DNA of 64,000 nucleotides from Roseburia sp. (lineage in GTDB: Bacteria > Bacillota > Clostridia > Lachnospirales > Lachnospiraceae): positions 1 to 64,000 of the forward strand of contig JAFYVJ010000074.1 of the NCBI GenBank assembly GCA_017549185.1, read 5' to 3'. Numbering within the stretch: position 1 is the stretch's first letter; each line of letters opens with the position of its first letter. The position numbers and the translations under genes were made by a program. The notes below the pieces were generated by a model. The model saw only the letters and a list, made by a program, of their open reading frames with translations. It was not told the DNA's origin and searched no databases. Positions 2,485 through 26,790 of the stretch are shown here, piece after piece.

Positions 2485-2486
2485 GT

Positions 2487-4143: not shown

Positions 4144-4156
4144 AAGCTAAAAATAT

Positions 4157-4206: not shown

Positions 4207-4209
4207 GTA

Positions 4210-4244
4210 TGTCCTACATTTTGTCCCACGTAAGAAATTATAAT
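4210..4244 (+). promoter_or_regulatory. Promoter with TGTNCTACRTTTTGTC element, copy 2
   Basis: TGTCCTACATTTTGTC (4210-4225) is followed after exactly 13 bases by TATAAT (4239-4244). TAAGA also occurs in the spacer of both copies. It drives the GGDEF gene. Confidence 0.55.
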
Positions 4245-4284
4245 ATATAGAGATTATTATTTTTTGTTGATTGGAGTGCATGCG

Positions 4285-5793: not shown

Positions 5794-5856
5794 ATATAAA
5801 TAAAGAAGTAAGTATGCACTATCTACTATGTATACTTACAAAGGAGAATACAAAAT

Positions 5857-7134: not shown

Positions 7135-7158
7135 ATATATTTGCGAATAGAGAATAAC

Positions 7159-7192
7159 TGTAACGAGTTTGTAACACCTTTAGAACTATTAT
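7159..7192 (+). promoter_or_regulatory. TGTAAC direct-repeat promoter, copy 1
   Basis: Two TGTAAC half-sites (7159-7164 and 7170-7175) lie exactly 11 bp apart, so on the same helix face. The -10 TATTAT (7187-7192) follows after 11 bases. There is no -35 consensus. The same layout is found at 11177 and 18369. This is the geometry of OmpR/SARP-type activators. I infer binding by the regulator at 26791 or 2487. Confidence 0.65.
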
Positions 7193-7230
7193 ACACTTGA
7201 GATGATAGGACAATTCTAAAGGTGTTTTTT
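7173..7230 (+). terminator. Terminator-like hairpin enclosing the promoter -10
   Basis: A perfect 13-bp stem (7173-7185 with 7214-7226) ends in six T, immediately before the ATG at 7231. The -10 box of the TGTAAC promoter lies in the loop and the upstream arm overlaps the second half-site. Transcripts reading through from upstream can fold it and should stop. Transcripts starting here lack the upstream arm. The downstream arm contains the ribosome site AAAGG. A second example is at 18383-18436. Confidence 0.6.
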
Positions 7231-9366
7231 ATGGAAAAAAATAAAATTACATTCGAAAAAGATGAGAAAAAGTCCATATTGATAGCTTTGATAGTGAGTG
7301 TCGTGCTGATTTTTGCACTGATACTTGCTTTTGTTGGAATAAAAAAATACCAGAAAGAGAATCTGGTAGATGTTGAGATAGAATCTAGTGTCACAATCGA
7401 GACGGAGATGACAGATACATATGATGGTAATGTCTATGTAAGAAATCAGGACGAACTGAATGGAGCGTTAAAAAATGAGTTGACGACAGCTATTATGATT
7501 GAGTCGAAAGAAAGTCAGACAATTGTAATTCCGGCAGGTGATTATAGTAAAATTGCACTTGTAATAGATGCTCCATATACAGAGATTACAAATTATGGTG
7601 TGTTTGAATCGATTTTAATTAAGCAGATTTCGACAAATACCTGGACGGAAAGTGCAATGGGTAATACGTTTACAATAGATGCACCAGCATGTCACATGAT
7701 TATTCCGAGTGGTATTACAGCAAATAGTATGGAATGTGTGCAACCGAAATCAACACTTGCATTGGAATTGCAGGGAACATTGCCAGTATTGGCGATAAAA
7801 GCGGATTCTTCGATTGTATCTGTTCAGATTGATGGTGAATTATCGCAGATAAGTGTAAAAAATACTACCAGTTTGAAATTGAGCGGTAGTTCAATGGATG
7901 TTACACCGGTTGAAATAGGCAGTAATGCGGCTAATACGATACTTTCAAGTAAGGTTCCGGTAAACGTGACTTCTTATGCTCAAGTATCGGTAGAGTTTTT
8001 AGAAGGAGCGGAAGGCAGTCAGTTTTTTGTATCGAATGAAGCCGTGGAAATGCTACTCACAAATAATACAAAAGAGGTTGTAGTTGTTACAAAACCGGAT
8101 GAGAAGCAAGAGACAGTTTCCAGCGGTAAATCTTATACCTTTAAAAAGAAACAGACGCTTGCGTCATCGGATAGCTCTAGTACGGGCAATAGTAGTAGCA
8201 ATAGTGGTAGTAGCAGTACAGTTGTCTCAGGTGGCTATTCGAAGAGTCAGGTAGATGCCATGATTAATCAGGCAGTTCAAAATGCTCTGGCAAATGCAGA
8301 CAAGCAGACACAAGAAAAAATTAATCAGGCATTATCAGGAACGATATCAAAAGATAAAGTAGATGAGATGATTGATGAAGCCGTGTCGGATGCATTAAAG
8401 GATGCAGAAGCAGATAAAGAAGAAGAGATTGCTGATGCGGTAGAGGATGCAGTCGAAGATGTAATAGAAGAAATAGTAAACAGACCGGTAATTATAGAGT
8501 TTGTTGATCAGGTACATATTTCGGCAGGAACGCAAGGGAATCTAATTCCGCTAGAGGAAATGGTATTTCCAACGGAAGTATACGGCAGAGATAGTAATGG
8601 AACGGTATATACGATAGCGGTAAAGGAGTGGCAGAATACGGATCATTATTCCGTAGACGTAACAGCCGGTAAGTATACTTTTACAGCAGTATTAGAAAGT
8701 AGTACGGAATATTATATCGCGAATGCGGTGCAAGCGTATTGCACAGTTATGGTAAAACCGACATCTGAGGATAATATTATAACTTATAAAAATGCTGCAT
8801 ACAGTGAGAAAATTAAAGTAACCGAATATAGGATGGCAGATTACGCCAATATACAACAGACCTATCCGCAGGCGTATTATTTAATTGAGAATATATCGCA
8901 GGAAGAAGTTATATATGCGTCGTTGAAATTTTATTATTATGATGGTGATGGTAATTTAATAGAACAGGCATATTGGAACGGGCAATACATACAACCGGGA
9001 AATAGTTGGATTGGATATCGTTCCAAACCATGTATGGATTATGCGTATTATGTTGTTGAGATTGATAATTTTACGGGAAAGAATGGAAAAGTAGAAAGCT
9101 TTGCAGAACTTTCATTGACACGGACACCGTCCATAGAGATTAATAAGACCGTAACAGAGAAGGTTTCGGAGTGTAACGGTATCATTTTATATTTGGATAC
9201 AAATGGTAATGCCTATGGCATTCAGACCTTTAAAACAAATGATGTCGATAAAAATTTGACGATAAATGATACGTCAAAAGAAATAAAAATGACTTTTAAT
9301 CTTACTCTACCAAATGGAGCTGATATTGATAGCTCGATTGTGGTATGGAGAGGAGGTTATAAGTGA
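7231..9366 (+). CDS. Membrane-anchored surface protein, first gene of the pilin unit
   Basis: 711 residues with no family I recognise. An N-terminal positively flanked hydrophobic helix (about 15-38) is a signal anchor, so the rest should be outside the cell. Residues about 70-300 are beta-rich with short repeated strands. A Ser-rich linker (about 312-335) follows, then a strongly charged helical segment (about 340-415; motifs KDKVDEMIDEAVSDAL and EDAVEDVIEEIV), likely coiled coil, and a beta-rich C-terminal domain. There is no LPXTG motif. I choose ATG at 7231, not the GTG at 7222, because AAAGG lies 8 bases upstream. The stop codon overlaps the next start (TGATG), which implies coupled translation. 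It may be a membrane base or stalk protein for the pilus. Confidence 0.75.
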   Translation: MEKNKITFEKDEKKSILIALIVSVVLIFALILAFVGIKKYQKENLVDVEIESSVTIETEMTDTYDGNVYVRNQDELNGALKNELTTAIMIESKESQTIVIPAGDYSKIALVIDAPYTEITNYGVFESILIKQISTNTWTESAMGNTFTIDAPACHMIIPSGITANSMECVQPKSTLALELQGTLPVLAIKADSSIVSVQIDGELSQISVKNTTSLKLSGSSMDVTPVEIGSNAANTILSSKVPVNVTSYAQVSVEFLEGAEGSQFFVSNEAVEMLLTNNTKEVVVVTKPDEKQETVSSGKSYTFKKKQTLASSDSSSTGNSSSNSGSSSTVVSGGYSKSQVDAMINQAVQNALANADKQTQEKINQALSGTISKDKVDEMIDEAVSDALKDAEADKEEEIADAVEDAVEDVIEEIVNRPVIIEFVDQVHISAGTQGNLIPLEEMVFPTEVYGRDSNGTVYTIAVKEWQNTDHYSVDVTAGKYTFTAVLESSTEYYIANAVQAYCTVMVKPTSEDNIITYKNAAYSEKIKVTEYRMADYANIQQTYPQAYYLIENISQEEVIYASLKFYYYDGDGNLIEQAYWNGQYIQPGNSWIGYRSKPCMDYAYYVVEIDNFTGKNGKVESFAELSLTRTPSIEINKTVTEKVSECNGIILYLDTNGNAYGIQTFKTNDVDKNLTINDTSKEIKMTFNLTLPNGADIDSSIVVWRGGYK

Positions 9367-11162
9367 TGAGAGGAAATAGAAAAGATATTATCATAAAGAG
9401 TTTGATACTCCTGGTTTCTATCCTATTGTCACTTATATGGGAAGATACCAATGTACAGGCAGTGGAGAATGCGTCCATTTCCATATCCGGATTAAAAGTA
9501 GGCGATTATGTAGAAATCTATCGAATTGCCTCCTACAAAGAAAGTGAGCAAACCTATGTATGGGAAGGAACGGTCGCAGACTGGATTCAGAATAAAGAAG
9601 AAGGCAAATCATACCTTAGCTTAAATCCGAACCAGCTAGATCGAATGACTGCAAGCCGTGCATTGGAATTTTTCCAGACCCTAATCATAGGATTAAAAAA
9701 TGAATCAAAGGGAATTGCCAATTTAGACGGTTATACGTTCTTCCTCGGAGAAGAGAAAGAACAATATAAGGTTGAGAATATAAAGCCGGGATATTATGTG
9801 ATTCTTCCGAAAGGAACGGATAGAATCTATGAATTAAAATGGCAGATGATAGCACCTGGGGAAGAAGCAGTCATCCATTATGACATGGAAGCAGGTGATT
9901 ATCAAATTCCTTCGATAGAGACTGTTTTGATTAATAAGACAAAAGATAGAGGAAAAGTGCGAGATGGAACACTTCTTCTGTTAGATGATGAATTGGAAGT
10001 CACTTCGCATATAGCGATGCCGAAATTCTCGGAAATGTATGCGATAGGTAAGCGCATTTTAAACATTTCTATCGTAGTGCCGAAGGGCCTGACTTATAAG
10101 GAAGATTCGTTGACATTATCGATAGAAGATGCGTCAGCATATTCCGTCGGGACATATGAAAAAGCAACGGTATATAGGAATAGAAACGGAGATGTACTAT
10201 TTTTCGGTACGCCGCAGGGATACTTCTATGAATTGAATGGCAGTTTACTGCTATCATCGGGAGAACCGGAAGAGGCGATGGAAAAATATAATACGACGTA
10301 TGAGACAGATTACTTGTTAGCAGTGCAAAAGACGGCAACGGAAGATCACAGGCAAAGTGATACGGAAATTGCTTCAAGTCAGGAAAGTGAAGTAATAGAG
10401 GAACAAAACTTACACGCACCTCCGGAAATGGAAGTGGAACATTTGATTGCAGAAGATGCAAGTAAAATAGTAACAGCGTATGATGGACAGACGATATTTG
10501 TGATTGCATTGGATACGGCGGATGTGCCGGAAGAGGTAGTAGTTACCTATGCAGCAGAGAAAAATACAGCTGCCAGCGGAACCGGTGAATATAATAATTT
10601 AATCGCTTTAAGTTATTCTGTTAGTCCATTAGATTCGAATTTAATATATTCAAGTATTTCAGAGGGGCTTGCGACTGCTTATAGCATTACAGTTGTAGCA
10701 GCAGAAGGATCTGGGGAATACATAGACTGGACAACAGAGGAGAAGCTGGATAAGGCACCACGATTTAGTGGAGTCGTATTTACGGTATACCGAGTCAAAG
10801 GTGATGAGGAATACGAATATGTGAATACGATTATGACAAATAATCAGGGGGTTGCTTCATTAAGTGGTCTTGAAGCAGCAGAGTATTTGGTGGAACAGAC
10901 GGTTTACCCTACGGGATTCACCTTGTCAGATGCATCTTTACTGATAAAAAAAGATGCTTGGACAGACGAATCAGTTATGGAAGGGGATGAAGATATTATG
11001 ATTCTTTGGTTAGAATATAAGACCAGATACCTTCCGGTAACGGGAAAAACGGGAACCGCACCATATATTTTCAACGGAATGATGATATGTGTGATGGCTT
11101 TAGGAACACTGGTACGACGAAAATATCCATTTGGAATACAAGCGTCATTCAATAAAAAATAA
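9366..11162 (+). CDS. LPVTG-anchored pilin-like surface protein
   Basis: 598 residues with a signal peptide and a C-terminal sorting signal LPVTG (556-560), followed by a hydrophobic helix and RRK. The N-terminal module begins like the pilins downstream (GDYVEIYRIASY). A Cna-B-like domain near 480-545 carries FSGVVFTVYRV and a degenerate E box (EQTVYPTGF). This suggests a minor or tip pilin joined by the class C sortase at 18462. ATG at 9366 overlaps the previous stop, and GAGGAGGT lies 8 bases upstream. The middle region (about 330-380) is acidic and probably unstructured. Confidence 0.82.
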   Translation: MRGNRKDIIIKSLILLVSILLSLIWEDTNVQAVENASISISGLKVGDYVEIYRIASYKESEQTYVWEGTVADWIQNKEEGKSYLSLNPNQLDRMTASRALEFFQTLIIGLKNESKGIANLDGYTFFLGEEKEQYKVENIKPGYYVILPKGTDRIYELKWQMIAPGEEAVIHYDMEAGDYQIPSIETVLINKTKDRGKVRDGTLLLLDDELEVTSHIAMPKFSEMYAIGKRILNISIVVPKGLTYKEDSLTLSIEDASAYSVGTYEKATVYRNRNGDVLFFGTPQGYFYELNGSLLLSSGEPEEAMEKYNTTYETDYLLAVQKTATEDHRQSDTEIASSQESEVIEEQNLHAPPEMEVEHLIAEDASKIVTAYDGQTIFVIALDTADVPEEVVVTYAAEKNTAASGTGEYNNLIALSYSVSPLDSNLIYSSISEGLATAYSITVVAAEGSGEYIDWTTEEKLDKAPRFSGVVFTVYRVKGDEEYEYVNTIMTNNQGVASLSGLEAAEYLVEQTVYPTGFTLSDASLLIKKDAWTDESVMEGDEDIMILWLEYKTRYLPVTGKTGTAPYIFNGMMICVMALGTLVRRKYPFGIQASFNKK

Positions 11163-11271: not shown

Positions 11272-13770
11272 ATGAAAGGATTAGGAAAGAAGTTTCTGGC
11301 ATTGACATTGGCATTGGTGCTTTTATTGGTAGGAAATGTATCCGTATTTGCAAGCAATGCAAATAATACAGTATTAATCCAGAAACAAGAGACAGTAGAA
11401 GGTTATACGCAGATTACAACAGATGGTAATAATACAAAAGTGACTGCGACTTATAATCTTCGTGTGAAAAGAGAAGATGATGAGTTTAATATGTATAAGC
11501 TCACAAATCTAGTATGGGAGAAGACTAGTGACGGAGTAGACTATGTGAGAATCTCATGGGTGCCGGAAGTACAGAGTTTTATCAACAGTAATGAACCATT
11601 TAATTCGGCAACCTTCTTATCAGCAGATACTACAATAAAGAAAATTTACGAGACCCCTCTTAACTTAGGAGAGGCGGAAGATACTACAGATACAGGTGTC
11701 TATGAGGCAGGTTCTAAAGTAAATGAGACTTATGTAATTGAGTTATTAAAAGCGATTCGTAAAGATGAGACGACTATGAATGCCTTAAAGGCAAACTATG
11801 TAATCGGATATCATGGAAACCCTTATGATGGAAATACTTCCGTATTACCTTCAGCGGAAAATTCTTCCTATGAGGAAGAAGGTTCTATGCCAGGTGAAAT
11901 CGGTCAGGCAAAGGTAACTCCTAGCATGCACGAACAGGAATTTTTATTAGCATATACTATTAGTGACATGCCAATTGGTCTTTGCTTTATCGATGTTACA
12001 AGTGGTCCTAGAGTATATCAGCCGGTTTTAGTAGATTTGATGCCTGTACAGGTAGGACCGACCGGTAATTGGTATGTAAAGAATACACAAGAATATAGCT
12101 TGAAGTATGAAGATGCAAGAATCGAAAAGAAGATTAATGATGCAGATTATGATATCGTACGTGAAGGTGAAATTGTAAACTTCAATATTACGGTAGACGT
12201 ACCTTTATATCATAAAGGTGAGGATAGTAATTATATTTATACATTGTTAAACGTATATGATGATATGGCTCAAGGTTATACTTTGATTCCAACATCTATC
12301 AATATTACATATAAAGATGCAGATGGAAATGATTTTGATGCAACAGAAGCTTTTACACATACAAATAATAAAGTAACAGCTACGGATGCAGATACTACAT
12401 ATACAGCGTTTATGGTTGAAAATGCATATGTATATTATGCTACGACAGACGGAAAAGATGTATTCTATGGTATCGAGACAGGTACAAGTGGTGAATTAGA
12501 ATTTTGGGCAAATATAAATGGTGAAATGGTTTCTTTAGGTACTTATAGAGAAACTGTAAGCAATTTATATGGAACACTTATTACGAACTATAATAATAAA
12601 GTAGTGAATGAGGAAGATAGATTAGGTTATGTGAATGCAGATATTGCTAAGAGAGAGCATGTGCAGTCTATTTTAGCAGTAAGATTTGACTATACGAAAC
12701 TTATGGATACATTAACTGTTTCAGATGCCCCATTTGTTCCGGACAGTATTACAATCAGTTACGATGCTAAGATTAATGATAATTCGTTCGTAGGTAACGA
12801 TGAGAATACGAATGATGCGTTCTTATATTACACAGGTGATTCAGCAGGAAATAGACATATTTCTCAGGATACAGTAAAAGCTTGGACTTATGCACTTAAT
12901 ATTGTAAAAGTAAATGGTAATGATACTTCTGAGTACTTAGCAGGTGCAAAATTTGATTTGTATCGTTTAGATGCAACTTATTGTGGTGGCGAAGCAGCGA
13001 CAGCTGTACCGTCTACTGGAGATTATATGAATTATAGTTTTTATAGGGATGCGGACGGTAATGCGTATGATGCGTCCAGAGCGAATTGGGAAGCTTTAAT
13101 CGGAAAAGCGGTATACAATTATTACGCATCAGATGATTCAGTTTTAGATTTAGAGGCAACCGTTTCTACTAAGAAGAGTGCAATGATTGATGCAACAGCA
13201 GATTATAAAAAATTAGATCAGTTTGCAGCTAAGTTCGGTGCTTTGACTGCAGAGAATCAGGAAATATTTAATGAATACATATTGACACAGGTAAATGCTA
13301 TGAAATATCAGTATCTTCCTGTTGAAGTTAATGAGTGCGAGGTACATCCAGGAAAAGTACATTATCATGTACAGGCGTATACCTTATTCTGGCAGGATAT
13401 TGAATCTGTTGCAGATGCAGAAGGTATTAGTGTAACAGGTTTAGATACAAATACTTATATCTTAGTCGAAACAGTAGCTCCAGAAGGATATCATCAGTTA
13501 GACAATGGTTTACAGTTCGTAATAAACGAGTATAATGAAGATCGAGCAGATGCAGCCGGTGGATATAAAGGTTTCGTAGATGATAATGATACAGATATCG
13601 TAGATGGAATCTACCAAATTACCGTAGAAAACTTTGAAGGTCTCGTATTACCAAGTACCGGTGGTACAGGAACATTACTCTTTACAATCATCGGTATTAT
13701 GTTAATGTTAAGCGCACTTGTAGTAATTATAACTAAGAACCGTAAGGAACAAAGCATTGGCTTATACTAG
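11272..13770 (+). CDS. LPSTG pilin, probable major shaft subunit
   Basis: 832 residues. A signal peptide ending in VFA is followed by an N-terminal pilin domain (FNMYKLTNLVWE), a D2-type middle domain (DYDIVREGEIVNFNITVDV), a Cna-B-like domain starting YLAGAKFDLYRL, and a classic E box YILVETVAPEGY. The sorting signal LPSTG (793-797) is followed by a hydrophobic helix and KNRKEQ. The pattern is that of isopeptide-stabilised pilins polymerised by class C sortases. It has its own activator-type promoter and an AAAGGAG ribosome site. Similar modules occur twice in the next gene. Which of these is the shaft cannot be told from sequence alone. Confidence 0.88.
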   Translation: MKGLGKKFLALTLALVLLLVGNVSVFASNANNTVLIQKQETVEGYTQITTDGNNTKVTATYNLRVKREDDEFNMYKLTNLVWEKTSDGVDYVRISWVPEVQSFINSNEPFNSATFLSADTTIKKIYETPLNLGEAEDTTDTGVYEAGSKVNETYVIELLKAIRKDETTMNALKANYVIGYHGNPYDGNTSVLPSAENSSYEEEGSMPGEIGQAKVTPSMHEQEFLLAYTISDMPIGLCFIDVTSGPRVYQPVLVDLMPVQVGPTGNWYVKNTQEYSLKYEDARIEKKINDADYDIVREGEIVNFNITVDVPLYHKGEDSNYIYTLLNVYDDMAQGYTLIPTSINITYKDADGNDFDATEAFTHTNNKVTATDADTTYTAFMVENAYVYYATTDGKDVFYGIETGTSGELEFWANINGEMVSLGTYRETVSNLYGTLITNYNNKVVNEEDRLGYVNADIAKREHVQSILAVRFDYTKLMDTLTVSDAPFVPDSITISYDAKINDNSFVGNDENTNDAFLYYTGDSAGNRHISQDTVKAWTYALNIVKVNGNDTSEYLAGAKFDLYRLDATYCGGEAATAVPSTGDYMNYSFYRDADGNAYDASRANWEALIGKAVYNYYASDDSVLDLEATVSTKKSAMIDATADYKKLDQFAAKFGALTAENQEIFNEYILTQVNAMKYQYLPVEVNECEVHPGKVHYHVQAYTLFWQDIESVADAEGISVTGLDTNTYILVETVAPEGYHQLDNGLQFVINEYNEDRADAAGGYKGFVDDNDTDIVDGIYQITVENFEGLVLPSTGGTGTLLFTIIGIMLMLSALVVIITKNRKEQSIGLY

Positions 13771-13788
13771 GAAAGGATGGTGAATGGA

Positions 13789-16700
13789 ATGAAACGTTTT
13801 ATAAAAAGTTTAACAGTGTTCGCATTGGTGTTTACCATGCTTTTAGGAAGTACACAACCGATTTTAGCGGTTACCACAGAAGAGCTAAATAATAAAAGCG
13901 ATACTTCTGTTTCAGTACAACTAGTGAACGCAGAAAATAGTACAGGTTCATTTACAGTAAATTGTGCCGGTACAGAAGATGAAATAAAAGTTTATCAAGT
14001 AGCAACCATGCAATGGAATGCTGATACAGAAAGTTTTGATGAACCACAGTGGGTTGCTGCAGTAACAAGCTGGTTGAGTGGAAGCTATGTAAGCTTAACT
14101 ACACCTGCGTTACTTGCCGCTCAGTCTGAATCGGTGCAAGGTGACTTTTTTAAAGCCTTGGTGGATGAAGAAAATGGAATTATTAAAGCGGATGGATTGC
14201 AAAAATGGTCTTCGTTTGCAGGGGATGGAGAAGATGGATATATCATTGATCCATCTATAGTAGTTGAAAAAGATGATAATGTTGATGAAAAAACAGATGC
14301 TTATTCTATCGAAAATGTTCCATTAGGTATTTATGTAGTTGTAGGTTCATCAGGTGCAAAGACTTATGCACCAGCTGTTGTTAATTTAATTCCTGATCGA
14401 GATCCAACAGGTAAATGGTATGTGGATAATAACATTGAAGCTACGATGAAAGCAGCAGATGCTTATATGCACAAATTTATCAATGGTCAAAAGACAGACA
14501 TCGTTACGATTGGTGAGGAAGTAGACTTTACAATTGAGTTTCCATTGCCTGAGTATGAAGATAGAGGTGAGCAGGCAATATACACCTTAACTTTTGATGA
14601 CGTGTTATCAGATGCATTTACATTGGATACAGATTCTGTTGTAATCAAATATCGTACAGATGCAGGTACATCCTGGGAACAAGCTGCTGAATTAAGTAAG
14701 GATTATTATACAGCACTTATCGCAGCTCCAGCACCAGCAAACAATCCGGATGGATATGGTATTACTGTTTGGGGCTGTGGATACCATCATTTAAAATATT
14801 ATACAGATTCTTCAAAAACGAAAATAATAGAATATGTTATTTATCGAAATAAATATAAAGACCCAGAAACTGAAAGAGATAAGTATGCATATTATTATTA
14901 TAAAGAAGGTGCATACCATGTAATTTATGATAGCGAAAAACAGTATGATAGCGTTGACGTAGAGGGATTAAGAGCGGAATACGCACGCCTAACAGGTGAT
15001 AGTACAGGCCATAGTTTGGTTCAATTTAATGCAGATGGAACTGTTAATGGTAGTGGAGGATCTACATCTCCAACGGAAGTACAGGAATTATTTGAGGGTA
15101 AGAACGGATACGAATATGTAGCAAGTCTATTCCATAATATTTTTAATATTACCTTTGATTATAACAAATTGATTGAGAACGATTTATATAATCAGAATGT
15201 AGATATTCAGATTACATATAAGGCTCAGGTAAATAAAAATATCGAAGTAAATAGTGAAAATAATACCAATACTGCAACTATGAAGTATGAAATTAATGCT
15301 GCAGGTGATAAATTCGCAACAATTAGTGATACTGTAAAGGCATATACATACGGTCTTAACCTTGTAAAGATGGATGGTGATACATACCAGACTACTCAGG
15401 CAACAGATGCACAGAGAAATCCTCGATTCGAAGCAGATGGCATTACACCAATATATGAAGATCCTACTTATTTGGAAGGTGCAAAGTTCTATGTATTTAA
15501 AGAAACCGATACTTTCATTGGAGAGGACTATAAAGGTTCTATGCCAGGAAGTCCAGATGCAAAAGATTTGGATGAAAATACTAAATTAACTGAATACAAA
15601 GCAGATCATACAGGGGATGGTCAATATTACTATTATACCTATCAGGCAACAGAAGATACGACATTAGATAATGGAGTAGCTGTTACATCCGGGGATACTG
15701 TAACCAGAGTATTCAAATTAGTGGTATTAGAAGATAAGACATATGGAACTTATTTTAACGGTACACTTACCTCAGATGATGAAGCAGAAGGTGTTACTGT
15801 AAAAGGTTTAGATGAGGGTAATTATATTGTAAGCGAGTACCTTGCTCCAACAGGATACAATCTTTTAGCAGAAGATATGATGTTCTCTATCTATAAGATT
15901 AGTGATAATAAAGCAGAAGAGCAGGCTGGCAGCTATAAACTCTTTTCCGGTAATCAGACTGGAGATGAGTTAGATGATGATGGTTTATATACAATGAACG
16001 TATTAAACTATGCTGGTCTTACACTTCCAAGTACCGGTGGTATGGGTACTATGTTATTTACTATGATTGGTATTTTACTAATGGTAGCAGCTATCGTGGT
16101 AATTATGATGAAAAATAAAAAGAACATGAGATATGCCGCAGAATTTATGGCAATCCTTTTGGTTGTAGGTATGTTATTCCAGCTTACACCACAGAATGTA
16201 TATGCGGTTACTGAGGTAAAACTCAATAACGAATATGGTTCAGCAGTAACTGGCGATAATAAAGTGAACTTTACTGTAAATATTAAAAATGCCGGAGATA
16301 CATTAGAGGTATACAAGATTGCCGAAATGAAATATGAGAATGATACCTATAATGGTCCATCATGGGTTACTGGTGTACAGCAAAAATTAGAAGGGTCTGA
16401 CTATGCCGCATATACTACACCAGCATTATTAGGTGAAGCAAGTATTGATGATCAGGTAGCATTTTTAGAATGGTTGTATACAAATAAAGACACGAATAAC
16501 CTTGAGCAGAATCAAAAAGTACCAGCAGGTAATATAACAGAATCAGTTGGTGGTGAACAGATTACAGTTTCAAATGTTGATTATGGTATTTATCTGGTTA
16601 AAGCTGTGAATACAATTTCTGGAAAGAATTATCAGCTTCTTACGGTAAATGCGATTCCTACACAGGAAGGTCCTCTTGGTGCTTGGTATATCAAAGATAA

Positions 16701-18366
16701 TATATCTGCAAATTTGAAATTCGCAGATATTAAAGTAGTAAAGACTATCAATAATGAAGATGGTATTACCGTATCAATGGGAGATGAGGTAGAATTCGAA
16801 ATTATAGGGGAAGTACCTGATTATCCGGGCGTTGATACTGTGGATAATGAAGGTAATCCAGCAAAGGATTTTTCAAATTATTTCTTCACAATGAATGATA
16901 CCATGTCAGATTCCTTTGAATTTGATAGAGAACAAGGCGTTGTTATTGAGTATACTACCGATAGTGATATAGAGACTGAAACTTGGGTAGAGCTTGAAAC
17001 AGATAAATATGAATCATTATTTGCTTTAGCTTCAAAAGATACAAGTACAGTAGGTGTTCGTAGATGCAAAGATAATATAGGAAATAACGATATTTATTGT
17101 ATCGTTTCCGGACCAGAGTCATCAAAATATACATATAATTTTTATATTTATTCAGAGGAATATGGAACCTATACATGGTTTTATAAATTATCTAGTTCTA
17201 GTTTAAATGCTAGTATTTCAGGAGCATTGACTGATTATAAGAATACTACAAAAAGAACTACTGCAACTACACTTTCTTTTGATAATACAGTCGAATGGAC
17301 AGATATTAATAATATTGTATTTGACTATGAAAAACTTCATGAGTTAGGTGCAAAATATGTTCGTGTGACATATAATGCAGTTGTTACACCAGAAGTTGTA
17401 GTAGGAGCAGATGATAATACCAATACCGTAACATTCCACTATCAGAAAGATTTAAGTGGTGCTGGCGGAAGTTCTTCTGACACAGCGTATGCATGGACTT
17501 ATGGTTTGAACATCGTAAAGAAAGATGGTGATGATACATCTACATATCTAGCAAATGCGAAATTCAAACTTTACAAAGAGGCACATATTTATGTACCAAG
17601 CGATGCAAATGCAGATAAAACAGAAGCTACTTATGCTAATTACGAATTTTTAATGAATGTTGATGAAACTACAGATGTACCAACAGGTATTATTTCAGCA
17701 GAGCAAAATGCTGTAGCAGAAACTCTTGATACATTAGCAGAATTAAATAGTGTAATCAACGGAGATTATTATTACAGATATGTAGCTTATGAAGCAGACA
17801 AGTGTGGAGTAGAAACTTGTGCAATGAAGGATGCAGCTCATTCACATGTACTTGTATATAAATTTATTGGAGTAAATGGTGATGCAACATCAGAAATCGT
17901 TTCTGTTGCAAATGCAAGCGGTGTTACAGTGAAAGGTTTAGCACCAGCTAGTTATGTATTAATCGAAACAAGCGCACCTACAGGCTACAATAAATTACAG
18001 GAAGCTTTAAGATTTGAGATTCAGGAACTTACAGTGGACCAGGCATCTGCATTAGGTCATCATACAGAAGATGGTAAAGTAAGTTTGAAAGGCTTTGCTT
18101 CAGACGAGACATACGAAAAAACTCAGATTGAGAGTGACACATCATTGAAATATGCACAGGTTGGAGAAGGTGATAAGGCAGTTTATTACAAAGTATACGA
18201 AGACGGTATTTATCCAATCGAAGTAGAGAACTTCAAAGGACTTACTCTTCCAAGTACTGGTGGTATGGGTACTTTATTCTTCACACTAATCGGTTTATTT
18301 GTTATGACAGCAGCATTAGTTGTTATCATTGCAAAAAGAAATGGACAAAAATATATTGAGTACTAA
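13789..18366 (+). CDS. Double pilin: two complete LPSTG pilin precursors in one ORF
   Basis: 1525 residues. Residues 1-778 form a full pilin precursor: signal peptide, N-terminal domain (DEIKVYQVATMQW), middle domain, Cna-B-like domain (YLEGAKFYVF), E-box-like YIVSEYLAPTGY, LPSTG (746-750), hydrophobic helix and basic tail. At 780 a second signal-peptide-like stretch begins (MRYAAEFMAILLVVG, ending NVYA near 806) and a second pilin follows (DTLEVYKIAEMKY, E box YVLIETSAPTGY), ending with LPSTG at 1487-1491. The reading frame is continuous and no ribosome site precedes the internal ATG at 16126. The start ATG 13789 is preferred over 13777, which has AAAGG directly against it. Sortase cleavage at the first LPSTG would split the chain. 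Confidence 0.85.
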   Translation: MKRFIKSLTVFALVFTMLLGSTQPILAVTTEELNNKSDTSVSVQLVNAENSTGSFTVNCAGTEDEIKVYQVATMQWNADTESFDEPQWVAAVTSWLSGSYVSLTTPALLAAQSESVQGDFFKALVDEENGIIKADGLQKWSSFAGDGEDGYIIDPSIVVEKDDNVDEKTDAYSIENVPLGIYVVVGSSGAKTYAPAVVNLIPDRDPTGKWYVDNNIEATMKAADAYMHKFINGQKTDIVTIGEEVDFTIEFPLPEYEDRGEQAIYTLTFDDVLSDAFTLDTDSVVIKYRTDAGTSWEQAAELSKDYYTALIAAPAPANNPDGYGITVWGCGYHHLKYYTDSSKTKIIEYVIYRNKYKDPETERDKYAYYYYKEGAYHVIYDSEKQYDSVDVEGLRAEYARLTGDSTGHSLVQFNADGTVNGSGGSTSPTEVQELFEGKNGYEYVASLFHNIFNITFDYNKLIENDLYNQNVDIQITYKAQVNKNIEVNSENNTNTATMKYEINAAGDKFATISDTVKAYTYGLNLVKMDGDTYQTTQATDAQRNPRFEADGITPIYEDPTYLEGAKFYVFKETDTFIGEDYKGSMPGSPDAKDLDENTKLTEYKADHTGDGQYYYYTYQATEDTTLDNGVAVTSGDTVTRVFKLVVLEDKTYGTYFNGTLTSDDEAEGVTVKGLDEGNYIVSEYLAPTGYNLLAEDMMFSIYKISDNKAEEQAGSYKLFSGNQTGDELDDDGLYTMNVLNYAGLTLPSTGGMGTMLFTMIGILLMVAAIVVIMMKNKKNMRYAAEFMAILLVVGMLFQLTPQNVYAVTEVKLNNEYGSAVTGDNKVNFTVNIKNAGDTLEVYKIAEMKYENDTYNGPSWVTGVQQKLEGSDYAAYTTPALLGEASIDDQVAFLEWLYTNKDTNNLEQNQKVPAGNITESVGGEQITVSNVDYGIYLVKAVNTISGKNYQLLTVNAIPTQEGPLGAWYIKDNISANLKFADIKVVKTINNEDGITVSMGDEVEFEIIGEVPDYPGVDTVDNEGNPAKDFSNYFFTMNDTMSDSFEFDREQGVVIEYTTDSDIETETWVELETDKYESLFALASKDTSTVGVRRCKDNIGNNDIYCIVSGPESSKYTYNFYIYSEEYGTYTWFYKLSSSSLNASISGALTDYKNTTKRTTATTLSFDNTVEWTDINNIVFDYEKLHELGAKYVRVTYNAVVTPEVVVGADDNTNTVTFHYQKDLSGAGGSSSDTAYAWTYGLNIVKKDGDDTSTYLANAKFKLYKEAHIYVPSDANADKTEATYANYEFLMNVDETTDVPTGIISAEQNAVAETLDTLAELNSVINGDYYYRYVAYEADKCGVETCAMKDAAHSHVLVYKFIGVNGDATSEIVSVANASGVTVKGLAPASYVLIETSAPTGYNKLQEALRFEIQELTVDQASALGHHTEDGKVSLKGFASDETYEKTQIESDTSLKYAQVGEGDKAVYYKVYEDGIYPIEVENFKGLTLPSTGGMGTLFFTLIGLFVMTAALVVIIAKRNGQKYIEY

Positions 18367-18402: not shown

Positions 18403-18436
18403 GCTAATATATGATAGACTAAGGGTGTTTTCTTTT
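18383..18436 (+). terminator. Terminator-like hairpin enclosing the promoter -10, second example
   Basis: The outer arms AACACCCTTAG (18383-18393) and CTAAGGGTGTT (18419-18429) and the inner arms CTATCAT and ATGATAG form a long stem, followed by TTTTCTTTT. The -10 TATCAT lies within the structure. It should end pilin transcripts while transcripts started here cannot form it. It could also set the ratio of pilin to sortase. Confidence 0.65.
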
Positions 18437-18461
18437 GCCGGAAGACATAAAAGGTGAGAAT

Positions 18462-19781
18462 ATGCGGGTAAGACGGGAGTTCAACAAGACGAATTTTCTT
18501 CTGATCCTAGTCTTTTTGGTGGGACTGGGGATTCTGTTGTACCCAAATATCAGTAATTATTTCAATGAACGCAACAGTTCAAAAGCAAATACCGTTTATG
18601 ACGAGACAGTTGCGTTGATGAATGAAGAGAAAAAAGTAGAGATAAAAGGGCAGGTAACAGAATATAACAAAACACTGCAAAAGGATCCAATCGGTCGTTT
18701 TGCAGAGATGACCATTTCACAGTATCAGGAATACATGTCACAGTTGAATGTAGATGGAAATGGTATGATGTGTTCATTAAAGATTGAAAAATTGGGACTT
18801 AATCTACCGGTGTTTCATGGTACGACAGAAGATGTTTTACAAAAATATGTAGGACATGTTGAAGGAAGTAGTTTGCCAATTGGTGGTATAGGAACACATA
18901 GTGCACTTTCAGCACACAGAGGTCTGCCGACCGCTGTGCTTTTTACGAATTTAGACCGTATGGAAGTGGGAGATTATTTTTCAATTGTAGTAGTCGGTGA
19001 AGAACATATTTATCAGATAGATCAGATTCTTACTGTTTTACCGGATGATCTTTCTCCGTTGGAAATCGATCCGGAGAAGGATTTATGTACATTGATTACA
19101 TGTACACCTTATGGAGTGAACACACATCGTCTGATGGTTAGAGGTGTCCGAATACCGGATGAAAAAGTGGAAGAAGTAATCTCGGAGATGGAAGAGTCAA
19201 AATTATTTGATTTTACAAGAGAAGAAGTTGTCAATATTATCGCGGTTGTCATGGTTAGCATCTTATTAGGTGCATTGGGTCCATCCATTTTGTTCCCGCC
19301 GATTATCATGAGAAAAGTGCCATTGCGTCCATGGGATGATAATATTGAAAAGGTTATAGCAGCGGCGATTCAGGTATCTGAATTTGCAACGCGTGCAAAT
19401 TGGGCAACAGAAGATGTGACCAAAGAAGCTGATCGATTGTCTAGGTTAAGACGTTGGGACGAAACATTAAATCATAAGGAAGAGCTTTCCGAAGAAGATA
19501 CACAACGTCCATGGCACGAATATCAATATGAGGATGAAGAAGAATTATCCGAAGTAGAGAAGAAACGTTATCGCGAATGGGATGATGAGATTCTAGAAAA
19601 GGTAGAGCAGGATTGGAAACCAATAGACCGTGCGGCACATAAGAGAGCGTTACAGTATACAGACGTTGATAAAGTAGTAGAGCAGGGAACTGCAGAAGAA
19701 AAACCTGTAGATTTGGAACCGTATTTTAAAGAAGAAATACAAAAAGGACATGAAATTGTAAAGAAGAGCAGACGAGAATAG
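18462..19781 (+). CDS. srtC: Class C (pilin) sortase with extended cytoplasmic tail
   Basis: 439 residues. An N-terminal helix (about 10-30) precedes the sortase domain. Catalytic residues are visible: His152 in LSAHRGLP, Cys214 in TLITCTPYG and Arg223 in THRLMVRG. A DPI motif near 65 could be the lid. A second membrane helix (about 258-280) is typical of class C enzymes. The remaining 155 residues or so are unusual: a charged cytoplasmic tail with four spaced RxW[DH] motifs (RPWDDN, RRWDET, RPWHEY, REWDDE). ATG at 18462 follows AAAGGTGAG, and the TTG at 18435 is rejected. It should polymerise the pilins encoded just upstream. Confidence 0.9.
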   Translation: MRVRREFNKTNFLLILVFLVGLGILLYPNISNYFNERNSSKANTVYDETVALMNEEKKVEIKGQVTEYNKTLQKDPIGRFAEMTISQYQEYMSQLNVDGNGMMCSLKIEKLGLNLPVFHGTTEDVLQKYVGHVEGSSLPIGGIGTHSALSAHRGLPTAVLFTNLDRMEVGDYFSIVVVGEEHIYQIDQILTVLPDDLSPLEIDPEKDLCTLITCTPYGVNTHRLMVRGVRIPDEKVEEVISEMEESKLFDFTREEVVNIIAVVMVSILLGALGPSILFPPIIMRKVPLRPWDDNIEKVIAAAIQVSEFATRANWATEDVTKEADRLSRLRRWDETLNHKEELSEEDTQRPWHEYQYEDEEELSEVEKKRYREWDDEILEKVEQDWKPIDRAAHKRALQYTDVDKVVEQGTAEEKPVDLEPYFKEEIQKGHEIVKKSRRE

Positions 19782-19801: not shown

Positions 19802-22702
19802 ATGATGGAACAAAAAAAGGCAATACGTATTAGTAAAAACATGATAGCGATTACTCTCTCAATTTGTATGATACTATATTTTGGCTATGCTGAAAGAAGT
19901 ATGAAAAGAGTTTATGCGGATGCAGATCTAAATACAGAAGTTGTCGTGACTGAAACAGAGTTGCCGGATAGTATAGAAGGCACAGTAGAGAATAGCGGAA
20001 CGGAGATAACGAATAGTGAAGAAACGATTCCTGATTATGTAGAAGATAACAGCAATTCCAACCTAGGCATAGAGCAGGGAACGGAGACGACAGAGAGCAC
20101 AGAATCAACAGAAAGTACAGAGTCGACAGAGAGTACAGAATCGACAGAAAGTACAGAGTCGACAGAGAGTACAGAATCGACAGAAAGCACAGAGTCAACG
20201 GAAAATACGGAATCGACAGAAAGCACAGAGTCAACGGAAAATACGGAATTGACAGAAAGTACAGAGTCGACAGAGAGTACGGAATCGACAGAAAGCACAG
20301 AGTCGGCCGAGAATACAGAATCGACAGAAGATCCGGAAGATACAGAAAAAGAAGAAATTCCACAGATAGTGGCTTCTATTACATATTCCTATACGATACA
20401 TAAAGCAGTAGAAACGGTAGCTCTATCAGATGAGGGAAGTAGCGAAGTTTCTGAAATAGATACACAGGAAGAAGTAATATCTGAGATTGTGACAGAAACA
20501 ATTATAGAAACAAGGGAGTACTATACCCTTTTTGAGGCTTTTGTAGGGGCAGCATCTGTAACAGAATTGTTGATAGAAAAAGGTATGGCAGATTATGTAC
20601 CGACGATTGTATTACTGTCGGATATAACAATAGGTGATACTGTTGTTAATGAAGAGAATGCATCCTTTATTTTAGATTTAAATGGTCATGCTGTACAGAT
20701 TGGAGAAACAGCAGGGATTGATTTTGCTGCTGGAAATATTGTATTAACAGACGGTGCTTATTTGGAAGCAAAAGAGCAGTCTTTAGAAGGTGCACTTCCT
20801 ATATTGGGAAGTGTATCTGGTATAGGTACTTATTTATTTACCGGTTCAGGAAATATGTGTTTTAATACGGGACGATATCAGTTAGAAAATGATATTGTAA
20901 CAGGATGTATCGTGAATCAGTCTACTAATGTAGTAATAAATGACGGTTATTATCTGGCAAAAGCAGGTAGGATAGCCGGCGATATAGGAACGATTACGAT
21001 TAACGGCGGATTTTTTATTTACGATGTAGAAAAGGGGATAAGGCAGACAGGTGAAGTGATTCTGCCAGCTGAACAGGCGCTGATTAAGACACAGATTACG
21101 ATGGGGGATGTGGTTTGGATTGGATTGGTGCTTGGTGAACCAAGTTATATAGTAGAAGTGAAGGTGACGGAAAATGATGAGATAAAGGAAGTTTGTACTT
21201 ATCATGCCGATTTTGCCAGTGCATGGGAACAGGCGATTACACTTAGTTGTGAAAATGGAGGTGTTCCTGCAAAAGTTCGTATCTGTGATGAAGAGATTGT
21301 TGGAGTACAGATAAGTCAGAGCTATGAATTAGATATCGTGGAAGAGCAACCGATACCTATAGTAGAATTGTCTAACATGAATATGAAACGTGCAGAGGGG
21401 TTTGTAGACAGTATGTTTTCTGTGAATAACGGAGAACTGATACTGGATGGATGTTATATAGATGGAGAAGCGGAAGCATCTGCATCTTTAATTCGAGTGT
21501 CTGGAAAATCTCATTTGTCTTTGAAGGATTCGACGTTGGTAAATAATGTCGGTATGTTAAATGAACAGACCGGAGATACAGGCGCAGGTGTACATTTAGC
21601 GGATAACGCTGTTTTGGAAGTAGAGGGAATTGTATCTGTCAAAAATAATGTATGTGTTGTTCCATTGTCAGAAGAAACCGTAACGACAGTAGTTAGAAAT
21701 GTATATATGCAAGATGGGGCTACTATCACAGTAAATGATACCTTAAGAGGCGAAGATGCTAGTTCTAGTATTGGAATTACACATCAGGATGGAATCATTG
21801 CCGGACTTACAATGATGGGTGATATGGATGCGACATTTATCAGCAAAAGAGAAGAATTATCCGGTGGTGCAGAGAATATGGATGTAAGTGATATTCTTGA
21901 AGTATTTACATCAGATGACTATCCATCATATTTTTTAAATTATGACCTAAATAAGAATATTCTTTATTGGGATAAAGAGACGAGATACCTTCCAGAGGCT
22001 GGTTATATTAAATTAGAAATGATACTTCTTTTTGTCGGATTATTTGGTTTTATCGTAAGTAATCTGCCTCAGTTAAAGGATAAAAAGTTATTAGCAAAGA
22101 TTGTAACTACAATGGCGACGGTTTGTATGATTTGTGGAATCGTAATAGGATTTTTACATATTAAGCGTGAACAGGATTTATATCAGGAGAACATACAGAT
22201 TATACAACAAATGACGGAATTGCAGGAAAGTAAGAAAACCACGGCAGATGTTTCTTCAGAGGCAGCATTTGCTACGGAAGCATATGAAAGTGAAGTGGAG
22301 GAAGAGCAGGAAATTGGACTTCCGAATGACGGAAGAGAATATTTTGCAGTTCTTGAATTGCCACAGTTGGGAATTAAGCTGCCGGTATTATCGGAATATT
22401 CCGAAGCTGGTATGAAGATGACGCCATGTGTATATTATGGAAGTATCGAAACCAATAATCTTGTGATAGTAGGGCATAATTACGAGAGCCAGTTGGCAGC
22501 GTTGAATGATTTTGACGAGAATTTAGAGGTAATTCTTACTTGTAAAGATGGAACGGTTTATACATATGAAAGTTTTATGGTAGAAAGTTTAAACCCGGAT
22601 CAGGTTGATGAGATGTTAACAGGTAATTGGGATTTTACCGTATTTACTTGTAATTATGCGGGAGACAAGAGAATAGCATACAGATGCTTTATACAGGAAT
22701 AG
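19802..22702 (+). CDS. LPEAG surface protein fused to its own sortase domain
   Basis: 966 residues. An N-terminal signal peptide (about 10-40) leads to a Thr-Glu-Ser repeat tract (about 96-178) and a beta-rich region (about 240-720; SFILDLNGHAVQIG resembles the giant protein at 52857). A sorting-type signal LPEAG (730-734) precedes a membrane helix (about 737-757), a short basic loop (KDKK) and a second helix (about 769-790). The rest (about 840-966) looks like a sortase: YFAVLELPQLGIKLPVL, His892 in VIVGHNYE, Cys950 in TVFTCNYAG, Arg957 or Arg961 in KRIAYRC. The topology is consistent: surface part out, loop in, sortase out. AGGAGGGAGG precedes the ATG. It follows the class C sortase gene by 20 bases. 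Confidence 0.85.
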   Translation: MMEQKKAIRISKNMIAITLSICMILYFGYAERSMKRVYADADLNTEVVVTETELPDSIEGTVENSGTEITNSEETIPDYVEDNSNSNLGIEQGTETTESTESTESTESTESTESTESTESTESTESTESTESTENTESTESTESTENTELTESTESTESTESTESTESAENTESTEDPEDTEKEEIPQIVASITYSYTIHKAVETVALSDEGSSEVSEIDTQEEVISEIVTETIIETREYYTLFEAFVGAASVTELLIEKGMADYVPTIVLLSDITIGDTVVNEENASFILDLNGHAVQIGETAGIDFAAGNIVLTDGAYLEAKEQSLEGALPILGSVSGIGTYLFTGSGNMCFNTGRYQLENDIVTGCIVNQSTNVVINDGYYLAKAGRIAGDIGTITINGGFFIYDVEKGIRQTGEVILPAEQALIKTQITMGDVVWIGLVLGEPSYIVEVKVTENDEIKEVCTYHADFASAWEQAITLSCENGGVPAKVRICDEEIVGVQISQSYELDIVEEQPIPIVELSNMNMKRAEGFVDSMFSVNNGELILDGCYIDGEAEASASLIRVSGKSHLSLKDSTLVNNVGMLNEQTGDTGAGVHLADNAVLEVEGIVSVKNNVCVVPLSEETVTTVVRNVYMQDGATITVNDTLRGEDASSSIGITHQDGIIAGLTMMGDMDATFISKREELSGGAENMDVSDILEVFTSDDYPSYFLNYDLNKNILYWDKETRYLPEAGYIKLEMILLFVGLFGFIVSNLPQLKDKKLLAKIVTTMATVCMICGIVIGFLHIKREQDLYQENIQIIQQMTELQESKKTTADVSSEAAFATEAYESEVEEEQEIGLPNDGREYFAVLELPQLGIKLPVLSEYSEAGMKMTPCVYYGSIETNNLVIVGHNYESQLAALNDFDENLEVILTCKDGTVYTYESFMVESLNPDQVDEMLTGNWDFTVFTCNYAGDKRIAYRCFIQE
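20087..20337 (+). repeat. Thr-Glu-Ser coding repeat tract
   Basis: About 28 units of a 9-base repeat (ACAGARTCG or ACAGARAGY) encode TES, with a few TEN and TEL variants. It forms a flexible, probably wall-spanning linker in the surface protein. Tracts like this change length easily by slippage, and each 9-base step keeps the frame. Confidence 0.9.
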
Positions 22703-22721: not shown

Positions 22722-23987
22722 ATGAGGATGTTTGGAATAGGGGTAGATCTAATGGCAGTCATGATAACATTTGTGATTTCCATTGGTGTAATCCTTGGGA
22801 AAAAGAATAGTCTGAATAAATATTTCCTGTTAATGTTATTGTTGAATGCACTGACGTTATTAGCTGATATAGGTACTCTGACATTTATGGGAGATACGGC
22901 AGCACTTGTTTTATTACAAGTGAGTTTAATTATGCAACTTTCATTTACTTTTTTGGGAGTGGCAGTGTTCAGTTTTTATATAGATGTTGTTTTGAGCGAA
23001 AAAAAAGGTGCCAGACCGATGTATCGCATCGTTCCTTTTGTAATTGTATTCATATTAATTGTTTTGTGCGTAACTTCGCTTGAAACAGGATTATTATTTC
23101 AAATTGATGCGAATGCAAATGTGAAATATGATAATTATTTTTGGATAGTAGAGTTATTAGGATGTTTTATCGTAATTTTTGATGTTGCGCGTGTTGTTAA
23201 GAGTCAGATTATGAAAAAGATATCTGCAATAACGGCAGTAGATATCTATATTTTTGTTGCAATACCGATGATTATGTTGGTAATACAAGAATTGTTAGGA
23301 GGAAGTCTGTCACTGTTTTATGCAGCAACTACGGTAGCGTTTCTGGTGTATTATATATCTATAAATACGCATCAGAACTATAATATGATGAACGAATCTG
23401 TTGAAGCTGTAAAAGCACAGACAGAACTCGTTCTTTCTCAGATACAGCCGCATTTTGTATTTAATACATTGACTACTATTAAATATCTGTGTAGTACGAA
23501 TCCTCATTTGGCGATTGAAGCGGTTACAAGATTTGCCAAATATCTTCGTAGAAATTTAGATACAATTTCCAATGAAAATTTGGTGAGATTTAAAGATGAA
23601 TTAGAGCATACGAAAAATTATCTATGGCTGGAACAGTTACGCTTTGGTAAAAATTTAAAAGTTGAGTATAGTATTGATTGTGATAATTTTTATGTTCCGG
23701 CACTTTCGTTGCAACCTATTGTTGAAAACGCTGTAAAACATGGTATTACCAAAAAGACCGGAGGCGGTTTGATTACCATTAATGTACGAGAATTAGATGA
23801 ATGTTATCGTATTACAGTAAGTGATGATGGAGTAGGTTTTGACAAACAGGAACGATCAAAGGAACATCATATAGGGATTCCTGATGTTCGTATGCGTATG
23901 TCTCAGTTAAATGGATCAACTTTACATGTACAGAGTGCAATAGGTGTGGGAACATCTGTTGTATATGAGATTATAAAGGATGAATAA
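22722..23987 (+). CDS. LytS-type sensor histidine kinase (third)
   Basis: 421 residues, with about six or seven membrane helices in residues 5-220, then the His_kinase box SQIQPHFVFNTL with His244 and an HATPase domain (LQPIVENAVKHG, DDGVGF). The architecture is the same as the kinase at 5857. AGGAGA precedes ATG 22722. It starts 19 bases after the substrate-sortase fusion and overlaps or abuts the following gene, so it is part of the operon. The regulator at 26791 is three genes downstream and is the likeliest partner. Confidence 0.88.
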   Translation: MRMFGIGVDLMAVMITFVISIGVILGKKNSLNKYFLLMLLLNALTLLADIGTLTFMGDTAALVLLQVSLIMQLSFTFLGVAVFSFYIDVVLSEKKGARPMYRIVPFVIVFILIVLCVTSLETGLLFQIDANANVKYDNYFWIVELLGCFIVIFDVARVVKSQIMKKISAITAVDIYIFVAIPMIMLVIQELLGGSLSLFYAATTVAFLVYYISINTHQNYNMMNESVEAVKAQTELVLSQIQPHFVFNTLTTIKYLCSTNPHLAIEAVTRFAKYLRRNLDTISNENLVRFKDELEHTKNYLWLEQLRFGKNLKVEYSIDCDNFYVPALSLQPIVENAVKHGITKKTGGGLITINVRELDECYRITVSDDGVGFDKQERSKEHHIGIPDVRMRMSQLNGSTLHVQSAIGVGTSVVYEIIKDE

Positions 23988-23988
23988 G

Positions 23989-24576
23989 ATGGAAAATGAT
24001 GAAAAATTAACGTCTATGATCGAAGAATTAAATGAGATACAGAGTCAGCTTGAAGACTGTGAGAAGGTGTTAAAATTAGAAATGCCTGTAGTTCCATCGG
24101 ACAGAGTAGAAAGAAAAACTGTCAGAAGAACTGTTGAGAGACAGCCAGTGGAAACAGATGTAAAACTGCATGCTTCTATAAAAGAACTTTCTGAGCAAAT
24201 GGAAGATATAAAGCATAGGCTAAGGCAGTTAGAAGAAATTACTGTTAAACTAGAGTTGCTCGATGAAGTAGACGAAGATGTCAATTATATCAAGAATTTC
24301 ATGAACCATAAGTTAGATAAGGACTTTGATGCGATGTATCGCAATCTTATGGATCAGATGAATATTGAGGCAATTAAAATTTATCGAAATATACAGGCGG
24401 TTATTGTGGAAGAACAAGCAAAACAGAATCATGTTTTGTTCGGTGTGGATGGTAAGTCTGATAAGTTGAAGTTTAGAATGAATCATGTATTGATTTTTTC
24501 CATCATATCGTTTGTGGTGTCTATTTTGGTAATGATTTTGCAGATTTTACCTGCAATGGGAGTTGATATTTTTTAG
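23989..24576 (+). CDS. Coiled-coil protein with C-terminal membrane helix
   Basis: 195 residues, family not recognised. Most of the chain (1-160) is charged and helical with heptad-like spacing (ELNEIQSQLEDCEKVLKLE, KELSEQMEDIKHRLRQLEE). The end is a membrane helix (HVLIFSIISFVVSILVMIL). This is a tail-anchored topology with the coiled coil in the cytoplasm. I choose ATG 23989 because AAAGGA lies 8 bases upstream. The alternative ATG 23980 abuts that site. A similar protein is encoded at 26226, on the other side of the lysozyme gene. The two could form a cytoplasmic scaffold under the pilus or sortase complex. Confidence 0.7.
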   Translation: MENDEKLTSMIEELNEIQSQLEDCEKVLKLEMPVVPSDRVERKTVRRTVERQPVETDVKLHASIKELSEQMEDIKHRLRQLEEITVKLELLDEVDEDVNYIKNFMNHKLDKDFDAMYRNLMDQMNIEAIKIYRNIQAVIVEEQAKQNHVLFGVDGKSDKLKFRMNHVLIFSIISFVVSILVMILQILPAMGVDIF

Positions 24577-24598
24577 AATGGATATTTGATGGAACTAT

Positions 24599-26170: not shown

Positions 26171-26225
26171 TCTTACAAATAGAAGATGGTTTATATATAG
26201 AAAAAAAGAATGTGAGGTAAATAAT

Positions 26226-26786
26226 ATGATGTACGAAAAACCAGAGGTTGATAGAAGAAAGTTAGATGACGCATATCTGCTTAGTGAGATTGCTAGACTA
26301 AAAAAAGAAACAGAAGAGATTAGAAAAATTCTTGATGAGCGTCAGAATCAGATGAATATTCTGGAGAAAAATACAAATACGGCAATATTTAAGCTGACGG
26401 ATACCCTGAATAAACTATCTGAAGAGATAGAAGAAGTAGAGATGTCTATATTAGAAGCACTTACGGAAAAGGAAGAGACATTACATAATGAAATCGAACT
26501 TAACAGTAAAAAGTTGCAGAATGCGCAGGAGCAGTTAGAAAAAGCCGTGTTAAAGCACATCGAAGCTGTTAAGGGGGATGTTTTGTCAACAACTGAAAAG
26601 GTGGACGGAGTAAACGATACATTAGAGAAGATTCGTGCAAGTTTAGCAGATAAAGTGGATAAGAAAACAATTTTTGCGTTACATCAGAGAACCACTACAA
26701 TGTTTGGAATTGCGGTGGTAAATATTGTAGGTACAATTATGGTTCTTGGATTATTGTGTTACTTGATTGTTTGTTTGGCGAGATAA
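26226..26786 (+). CDS. Coiled-coil protein with C-terminal membrane helix (second)
   Basis: 186 residues, family not recognised. Long helical heptads occupy about 10-150 (SEIARLKKETEEIRKILDE, EEVEMSILEALTEKEETL), and a membrane helix ends the protein (TMFGIAVVNIVGTIMVLGLL). The tail-anchored layout is the same as in the protein at 23989, but with little direct sequence likeness. GAGGT precedes ATG 26226. Its stop codon lies four bases before the regulator start. Confidence 0.7.
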   Translation: MMYEKPEVDRRKLDDAYLLSEIARLKKETEEIRKILDERQNQMNILEKNTNTAIFKLTDTLNKLSEEIEEVEMSILEALTEKEETLHNEIELNSKKLQNAQEQLEKAVLKHIEAVKGDVLSTTEKVDGVNDTLEKIRASLADKVDKKTIFALHQRTTTMFGIAVVNIVGTIMVLGLLCYLIVCLAR

Positions 26787-26790
26787 GGTT

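Follow-up and report, generated by a model that had tools for sequence, protein, structure and literature searches.

A pilus-locus protein that joins a surface protein with a sorting signal to a sortase domain in one chain

Self-cleaving sortase fusions beyond the one considered at the end of this article have been engineered; such proteins are laboratory constructs, not natural membrane hairpins. Otherwise sortase and substrate are normally separate proteins, a premise of the preliminary description of the present gene that holds among its relatives: 98 distinct related sortase sequences, obtained from 102 loci with identical proteins counted once, comprise 89 stand-alone and nine fused forms (L141, a protein of 407 aa with no motif, being counted as stand-alone). 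AbpA and SrtB of oral streptococci (PMC4974636) are a described pair in which, as in the fusion, a locus combines a single sortase with a single substrate, although the two are separate proteins rather than a single chain. No natural sortase-substrate fusion was found in the titles and abstract openings listed from one open-access library, which lacks most subscription papers. Below, we describe a single chain that is a surface protein with a cell-wall sorting signal and also a sortase, and that is encoded in a pilus gene cluster of a gut bacterium. The window, that is, the whole stretch of DNA analysed, is 64,000 nucleotides long. The reading that we favour, at somewhat better than even confidence, is that the chain is a real natural fusion of a surface protein with its own dedicated anchoring sortase, processed at an LPEAG motif by itself or by a neighbour.

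The fusion gene and its pilus locus

The fusion reading frame (19802..22702, + strand) encodes 966 aa, is uninterrupted by stop codons and has AGGAGGGAGG immediately 5' of it. The preliminary description had read from it a signal peptide, stalk, LPEAG, helix, basic loop, helix and sortase in one chain, and this layout is confirmed by the reading frame, hydropathy and Pfam (Table 1). The N-terminal hydrophobic segment starts at residue 14 (Kyte-Doolittle 1.99 over 17 residues) and is followed by a signal-peptidase-like end, VYA↓D, of which Ala39 is invariant in a five-row alignment. The layout of an LPXTG anchor is partly present, with LPEAG, a helix at 736-752 and then a KDKK loop, Ala replacing Thr; the sorting signal is internal, not C-terminal, the second helix and the sortase domain coming after the motif. 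A helix spanning residues 761-819 in the structure model covers the second membrane helix.

Table 1. Features of the pilus locus and of the fusion gene, with positions in the window.
Feature	Position	Strand	Residues, evidence or remarks
LPVTG surface protein	9363..11162	+	Pfam SpaA 31 bits; LPVTG at 557
Pilin with C-terminal LPSTGG	11272..13770	+	Pfam SpaA and Gram_pos_anchor
Double pilin, LPSTG signals at 750 and 1491, internal signal peptide	13777..18366	+	NCBIfam NF033902, 112.6 bits against cut-off 95
Class C (pilus) sortase, directly upstream of fusion	18435..19781	+	NCBIfam NF033745, 242.7 bits against cut-off 160
Signal peptide of fusion protein	19802..19918	+	residues 1-39, VYA↓D; cleavage site inferred
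Thr-Glu-Ser repeat stalk	20084..20344	+	residues ~95-181; from sequence
Ectodomain, beta-helix-like	20351..21988	+	residues 184-729
LPEAG sorting motif	21989..22003	+	residues 730-734; invariant in 6/6 fusions
First membrane helix after motif	22007..22057	+	residues ~736-752; hydropathy
Short basic loop, predicted cytoplasmic	22067..22111	+	residues ~756-770; PQLKDKKLLAK in the window
Second membrane helix, anchor of sortase part	22112..22162	+	residues ~771-787; hydropathy
Extracellular linker	22163..22339	+	residues 788-846; pLDDT lower in part
Sortase domain and stop codon	22340..22702	+	residues 847-966
Catalytic His892 codon	22475..22477	+	invariant in 18 rows and in 67 rows
Catalytic Cys950 codon	22649..22651	+	invariant in 18 rows and in 67 rows
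Catalytic Arg957 codon	22670..22672	+	invariant in 18 rows and in 67 rows

The C-terminal domain belongs to the sortase superfamily on three counts: its sequence, its predicted fold and its catalytic residues. Pfam PF04203 matches residues 851-957 with 41.9 bits (cut-off 26.6), and structure prediction gives the sortase fold that had been supposed for this part. The three residues put forward as catalytic (Table 1) proved to be invariant in two alignments, A1 of 18 rows (the window and 17 of 20 loci, L064, L068 and L080 being left out) and A3 of 67 rows (the window and 66 of 80 loci); Arg961 is nearly invariant in the 18 rows, the window included. The fused sortase is below the cut-off for every NCBIfam sortase class, reaching 19.8 bits of the 160 set for class C (NF033745) and 18.5 of the 140 set for class D (NF058671, SrtD, LPxTATN-specific).

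The window ectodomain looks like a beta-helix adhesin, its fold being uncertain (pLDDT 66.6; no Foldseek match at E ≤ 0.001); Pfam found no Cna_B, SpaA or pilin D1 match in the window fusion protein at E ≤ 1. In place of the Thr-Glu-Ser repeats, the stalks of related fusions are of other low-complexity or Cys-rich types. Residues 233-265 of one Pseudobutyrivibrio fusion (L083, protein at 4580-7639), in its Cys-rich stalk, match the Pfam CD1107-like model with 35.9 bits against a cut-off of 26.

The fusion gene does follow a class C sortase gene, as had been described, by a match well above the model's cut-off (Table 1). The five relatives that also carry LPEAG fusions have a preceding gene similar in size and N-terminus to this class C sortase, with a PF04203 match in all four tested. 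In the window enzyme about 160 residues follow the second helix as a long, charged C-terminal tail; the counterparts are of 443-444 aa in four relatives and of 387 aa, as called, in the fifth. The double pilin consists of LPSTG, a helix, a basic loop, an internal signal peptide and a second pilin with LPSTGG in all six loci (the window and L178-L182), and its inferred internal signal-peptidase-like sites are VYA↓VTEV in the window and NA↓ATTIS in the others. The flanks (685-7134 and 22722-27636) hold what we take to be sensor-kinase-like and response-regulator-like genes, small transmembrane proteins and a lysozyme-like gene. This flanking gene order is partly common to Pseudobutyrivibrio loci. 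Only two sortases were found in the window genome, which is 70% complete, and four Pseudobutyrivibrio/Butyrivibrio genomes tested have 7-9 sortase matches each, that is, 6-8 besides the fused sortase, including the class C enzyme of the locus.

Fused and stand-alone relatives

The same domain order, sought in other genomes by a contig search, is present in five besides the window; the LPEAG fusions thus come from six genomes in two genus groups (the window, L083-L086 and L178). A contig search with a single query sequence found nothing, and relatives were found with alignment A1 as query. Four of the fusions, among the best 80 of 580 relatives in named genomes, belong to Pseudobutyrivibrio sp. 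OR37, P. xylanivorans DSM 14809, Butyrivibrio fibrisolvens 16/4 and P. ruminis AD2017, in frames of 1003-1039 aa. The 29 genomes searched in the Pseudobutyrivibrio/Butyrivibrio genus group hold five fusions, these four and that of G479 (L178, a frame of 1034 aa). In the window's own genus group (62 genomes) the fusion was seen only in the window, in a search swamped by Thr-Glu-Ser repeats in which at most 13 candidates were scored per genome; besides the window, the only match listed that covers the sortase part there is a 204-aa frame in G023 with 27% identity. The five relatives are 31-33% identical to the window protein and 56-81% identical among themselves.

Within the family, three of 74 matches (397 genomes) lie in frames above 380 aa, as do five of 79 matches with E ≤ 1e-40 within the order (392 genomes), the two samples overlapping; across the phylum (398 genomes), the longest frame among the PF04203 matches listed is 542 aa. 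Of four long-frame places taken from the phylum survey, L203, L204 and L205 lack a fusion of motif, helix, helix and sortase, and for L206 the scripts picked no sortase frame. The closest relative (G217) has a sortase-domain piece of 129 aa between regulator-like genes (L063, 9933-10322; L089 is the same contig by length). The piece keeps the His, Cys and Arg, no membrane helix was found in it, and it looks like the remnant of a lost pilus locus.

The stand-alone sortases indicate what the fusion replaces. An upstream gene could be assessed for 81 of the 89 (eight had none to assess), and in 68 of the 81 the sortase gene lies 3' of an LPxTG-type protein gene at a distance of no more than 400 bases, the two genes overlapping in 59 of the 68. 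The signal is LPQTG in 48 of these neighbours, and the residue after the motif is Gln in 41 of the 68 and Met in 13. In the other 13 assessable cases the rule used found no signal-bearing neighbour; in three of them (L087, L090 and L133) the preceding gene resembles a pilus sortase by eye. Three neighbour proteins were tested with Pfam: pilin D1 and Cna_B exceed the cut-off in that of L070, and SpaA stays below it in those of L071 and L072. The usual order in related loci is a large surface protein, a pilin, a pilus-type sortase, a small LPQTG protein and a sortase, where the middle sortase was assigned by size and helices and PF04203 matches were confirmed in G288, G092 and G461. In the window, the fusion gene stands where many of these loci end with a small LPQTG protein and a sortase.

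Four further fusions (L069, L076, L159 and L183) have LPQTG or FPQTG between the parts. They resemble the LPEAG fusions in having sorting signal, helix, basic loop, helix and sortase in a single chain, but differ in the part before the motif, which is of about 190-300 aa. With Pfam, Cna_B together with SpaA in L069, and SpaA in L076, exceed the cut-off; no Cna_B, SpaA or pilin D1 match was found in L159, L183 or the LPEAG fusion L083. A tree was made from 99 rows and 126 columns, its bootstrap not having settled. It places the LPEAG clade, including the G217 remnant, together with support 100/99, L069, L076 and L159 branching apart from it and L183 standing on a long branch near it at a weakly supported fork. 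The label 'fused' changes state six times on this tree, at least three of the changes being forced by well-supported branches, although three changes may also be one gain and two losses. It is likely, though not proved, that the fusion arose more than once.

Conservation and processing at LPEAG

LPEAG is the only run of at least four invariant residues outside the sortase domain of the six fusions, the remaining four such runs all being inside it. Invariant positions number 97 of 546 in the ectodomain, 10 of 23 at 735-757, five of 56 in the linker (789-844) and 63 of 122 in the sortase. A chance motif is ruled out by this conservation in six of six, with the caveat that it rests in effect on two lineages, because five of the six are 56-81% identical and from one genus group. 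In both close pairs compared, dN/dS is lowest of five regions in the sortase part (0.011 and 0.041), that of the ectodomain being 0.082 and 0.078 and the range over all regions 0.011-0.216; these ratios are rough because dS exceeds 1 in eight of the ten region-pairs. The six genomes contain 18 sites that code for LPEAG; of these, just one per genome, the fusion, is a long reading frame with a membrane helix directly after the motif, so that LPEAG looks private to the fused enzyme. The window's own genome also has LPEAG in an open stretch of 53 residues, where a hydrophobic tail comes after it (L190, G000:C39 near 8313).

These observations leave almost no room for the idea that the long frame is spurious or the gene decaying (through a stop that was missed, a MAG wrongly assembled or a sortase that is dead): although the window genome is incomplete and the close relative G217 retains just a sortase piece, assembly error and decay are ruled out by the same frame in five other genomes, named strains included, and by the dN/dS values, rough as they are, and the catalytic residues are invariant.

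The idea that the sortase is translated by itself, from a start within the gene, was rejected for the window: of the six in-frame start codons that lie after LPEAG and before the sortase domain, none has a site matching AGGAGG at four or more of six bases. In the other nine fusions weak start-like sites do occur between the two parts, and an internal start could be used there.

The predicted membrane topology bears on how the chain could be processed. The loop between the helices contains Lys or Arg in all six LPEAG fusions. Judged from the helices together with the positive-inside rule, this basic loop alone would be inside, and the ectodomain, LPEAG and sortase domain would all be outside; motif and enzyme would share the outer face if both helices are membrane-spanning, which the Lys-rich loop suggests. 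With nearly 60 residues, the linker would be long enough for the sortase domain to reach the motif. The shared face and this reach favour self-processing that leaves a two-helix sortase. Under the favoured reading, Cys950 would attack the Ala-Gly bond of LPEAG, in its own chain or in a neighbouring copy, the ectodomain would be handed to the wall precursor or to the pilus, and the two-helix sortase would remain in the membrane.

By its locus position, the ectodomain might be the base, or last subunit, of the pilus; it might also be an adhesin anchored to the wall. The suggestion that the gene encodes the anchor or base of the pilus thus stands in part: its position after the class C sortase gene in a pilus locus points to such a role, but the window ectodomain has no pilin-type Pfam domain, and the beta-helix-like ectodomain modelled for the LPEAG clade would equally suit an adhesin. 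With ectodomain and anchoring enzyme made in a fixed 1:1 ratio, the termination of the pilus would be linked to its anchoring in the wall. More tentatively, at well under even confidence, we propose that the chain cuts itself once, in cis, at LPEAG when the pilus reaches its base, coupling the end of growth to wall anchoring, and that the whole locus works through membrane-spanning polyproteins, the latter because the upstream pilin gene also fuses two pilins. This double pilin would be matured by a sortase and signal peptidase.

Alternatively, a different sortase may cut LPEAG, either the class C enzyme of this locus or a further one, the fused domain instead anchoring the LPSTGG pilins. The class C gene is directly upstream, and the several sortase matches of each of the four Pseudobutyrivibrio/Butyrivibrio genomes could include such an LPEAG cutter. 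We regard this as unlikely: unfused sortases of the same type mostly adjoin an LPQTG protein, with Gln or Met after the motif in the proportions given above, which sets these signals apart from the LPSTGG pilins; a signal of that kind, LPQTG or FPQTG, is also retained in the four further fusions; and the window genome, at 70% completeness, shows just two sortases.

It is also conceivable, though we think it improbable, that LPEAG is left uncut and that the protein stays whole in the membrane, as a sortase whose ectodomain acts as adhesin or scaffold, the motif being an internal pseudo-substrate or a docking site. All six LPEAG fusions have Ala at the fourth motif position, compared with Thr in 67 and Ser in one of the 68 neighbour signals of stand-alone sortases, and the anchor models PF00746 and TIGR01167 miss the signal, giving no match to the 966-aa protein at E ≤ 1. 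Given this Ala, the motif could be a slow or lost site. Against this, the four other fusions retain Thr (LPQTG or FPQTG), and Ala is not disqualifying, because LPxAG is counted among the sorting motifs of S. aureus (PMC3436756) and of S. uberis (PMC2657157).

Comparison with known systems

Matching a sortase to its substrate from sequence is usually difficult; here a likely pair has been written by the genome as one chain, probably more than once in evolution. The fusion offers a ready system for testing in-cis sortase action and tolerance of Ala at the fourth motif position, and likewise how the growth of clostridial pili ends and how they are anchored. It also provides a natural template for self-processing surface display, and the locus hints at polyproteins as the source of some bacterial pili.

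The stand-alone sortases of clostridial pilus loci are of the same clade as the fused sortase and share its catalytic domain. They usually have one N-terminal membrane helix, and mostly an adjoining LPQTG partner; sortase and partner are two separate, often overlapping genes, and the motif is mostly LPQTG as opposed to LPEAG in the fusion. An engineered sortase construct described as cutting itself (PMC10726597) embodies the principle proposed here for the window fusion. The window protein would resemble both such engineered fusions and a cognate pair of sortase and substrate in its working, while being a membrane hairpin of natural origin.
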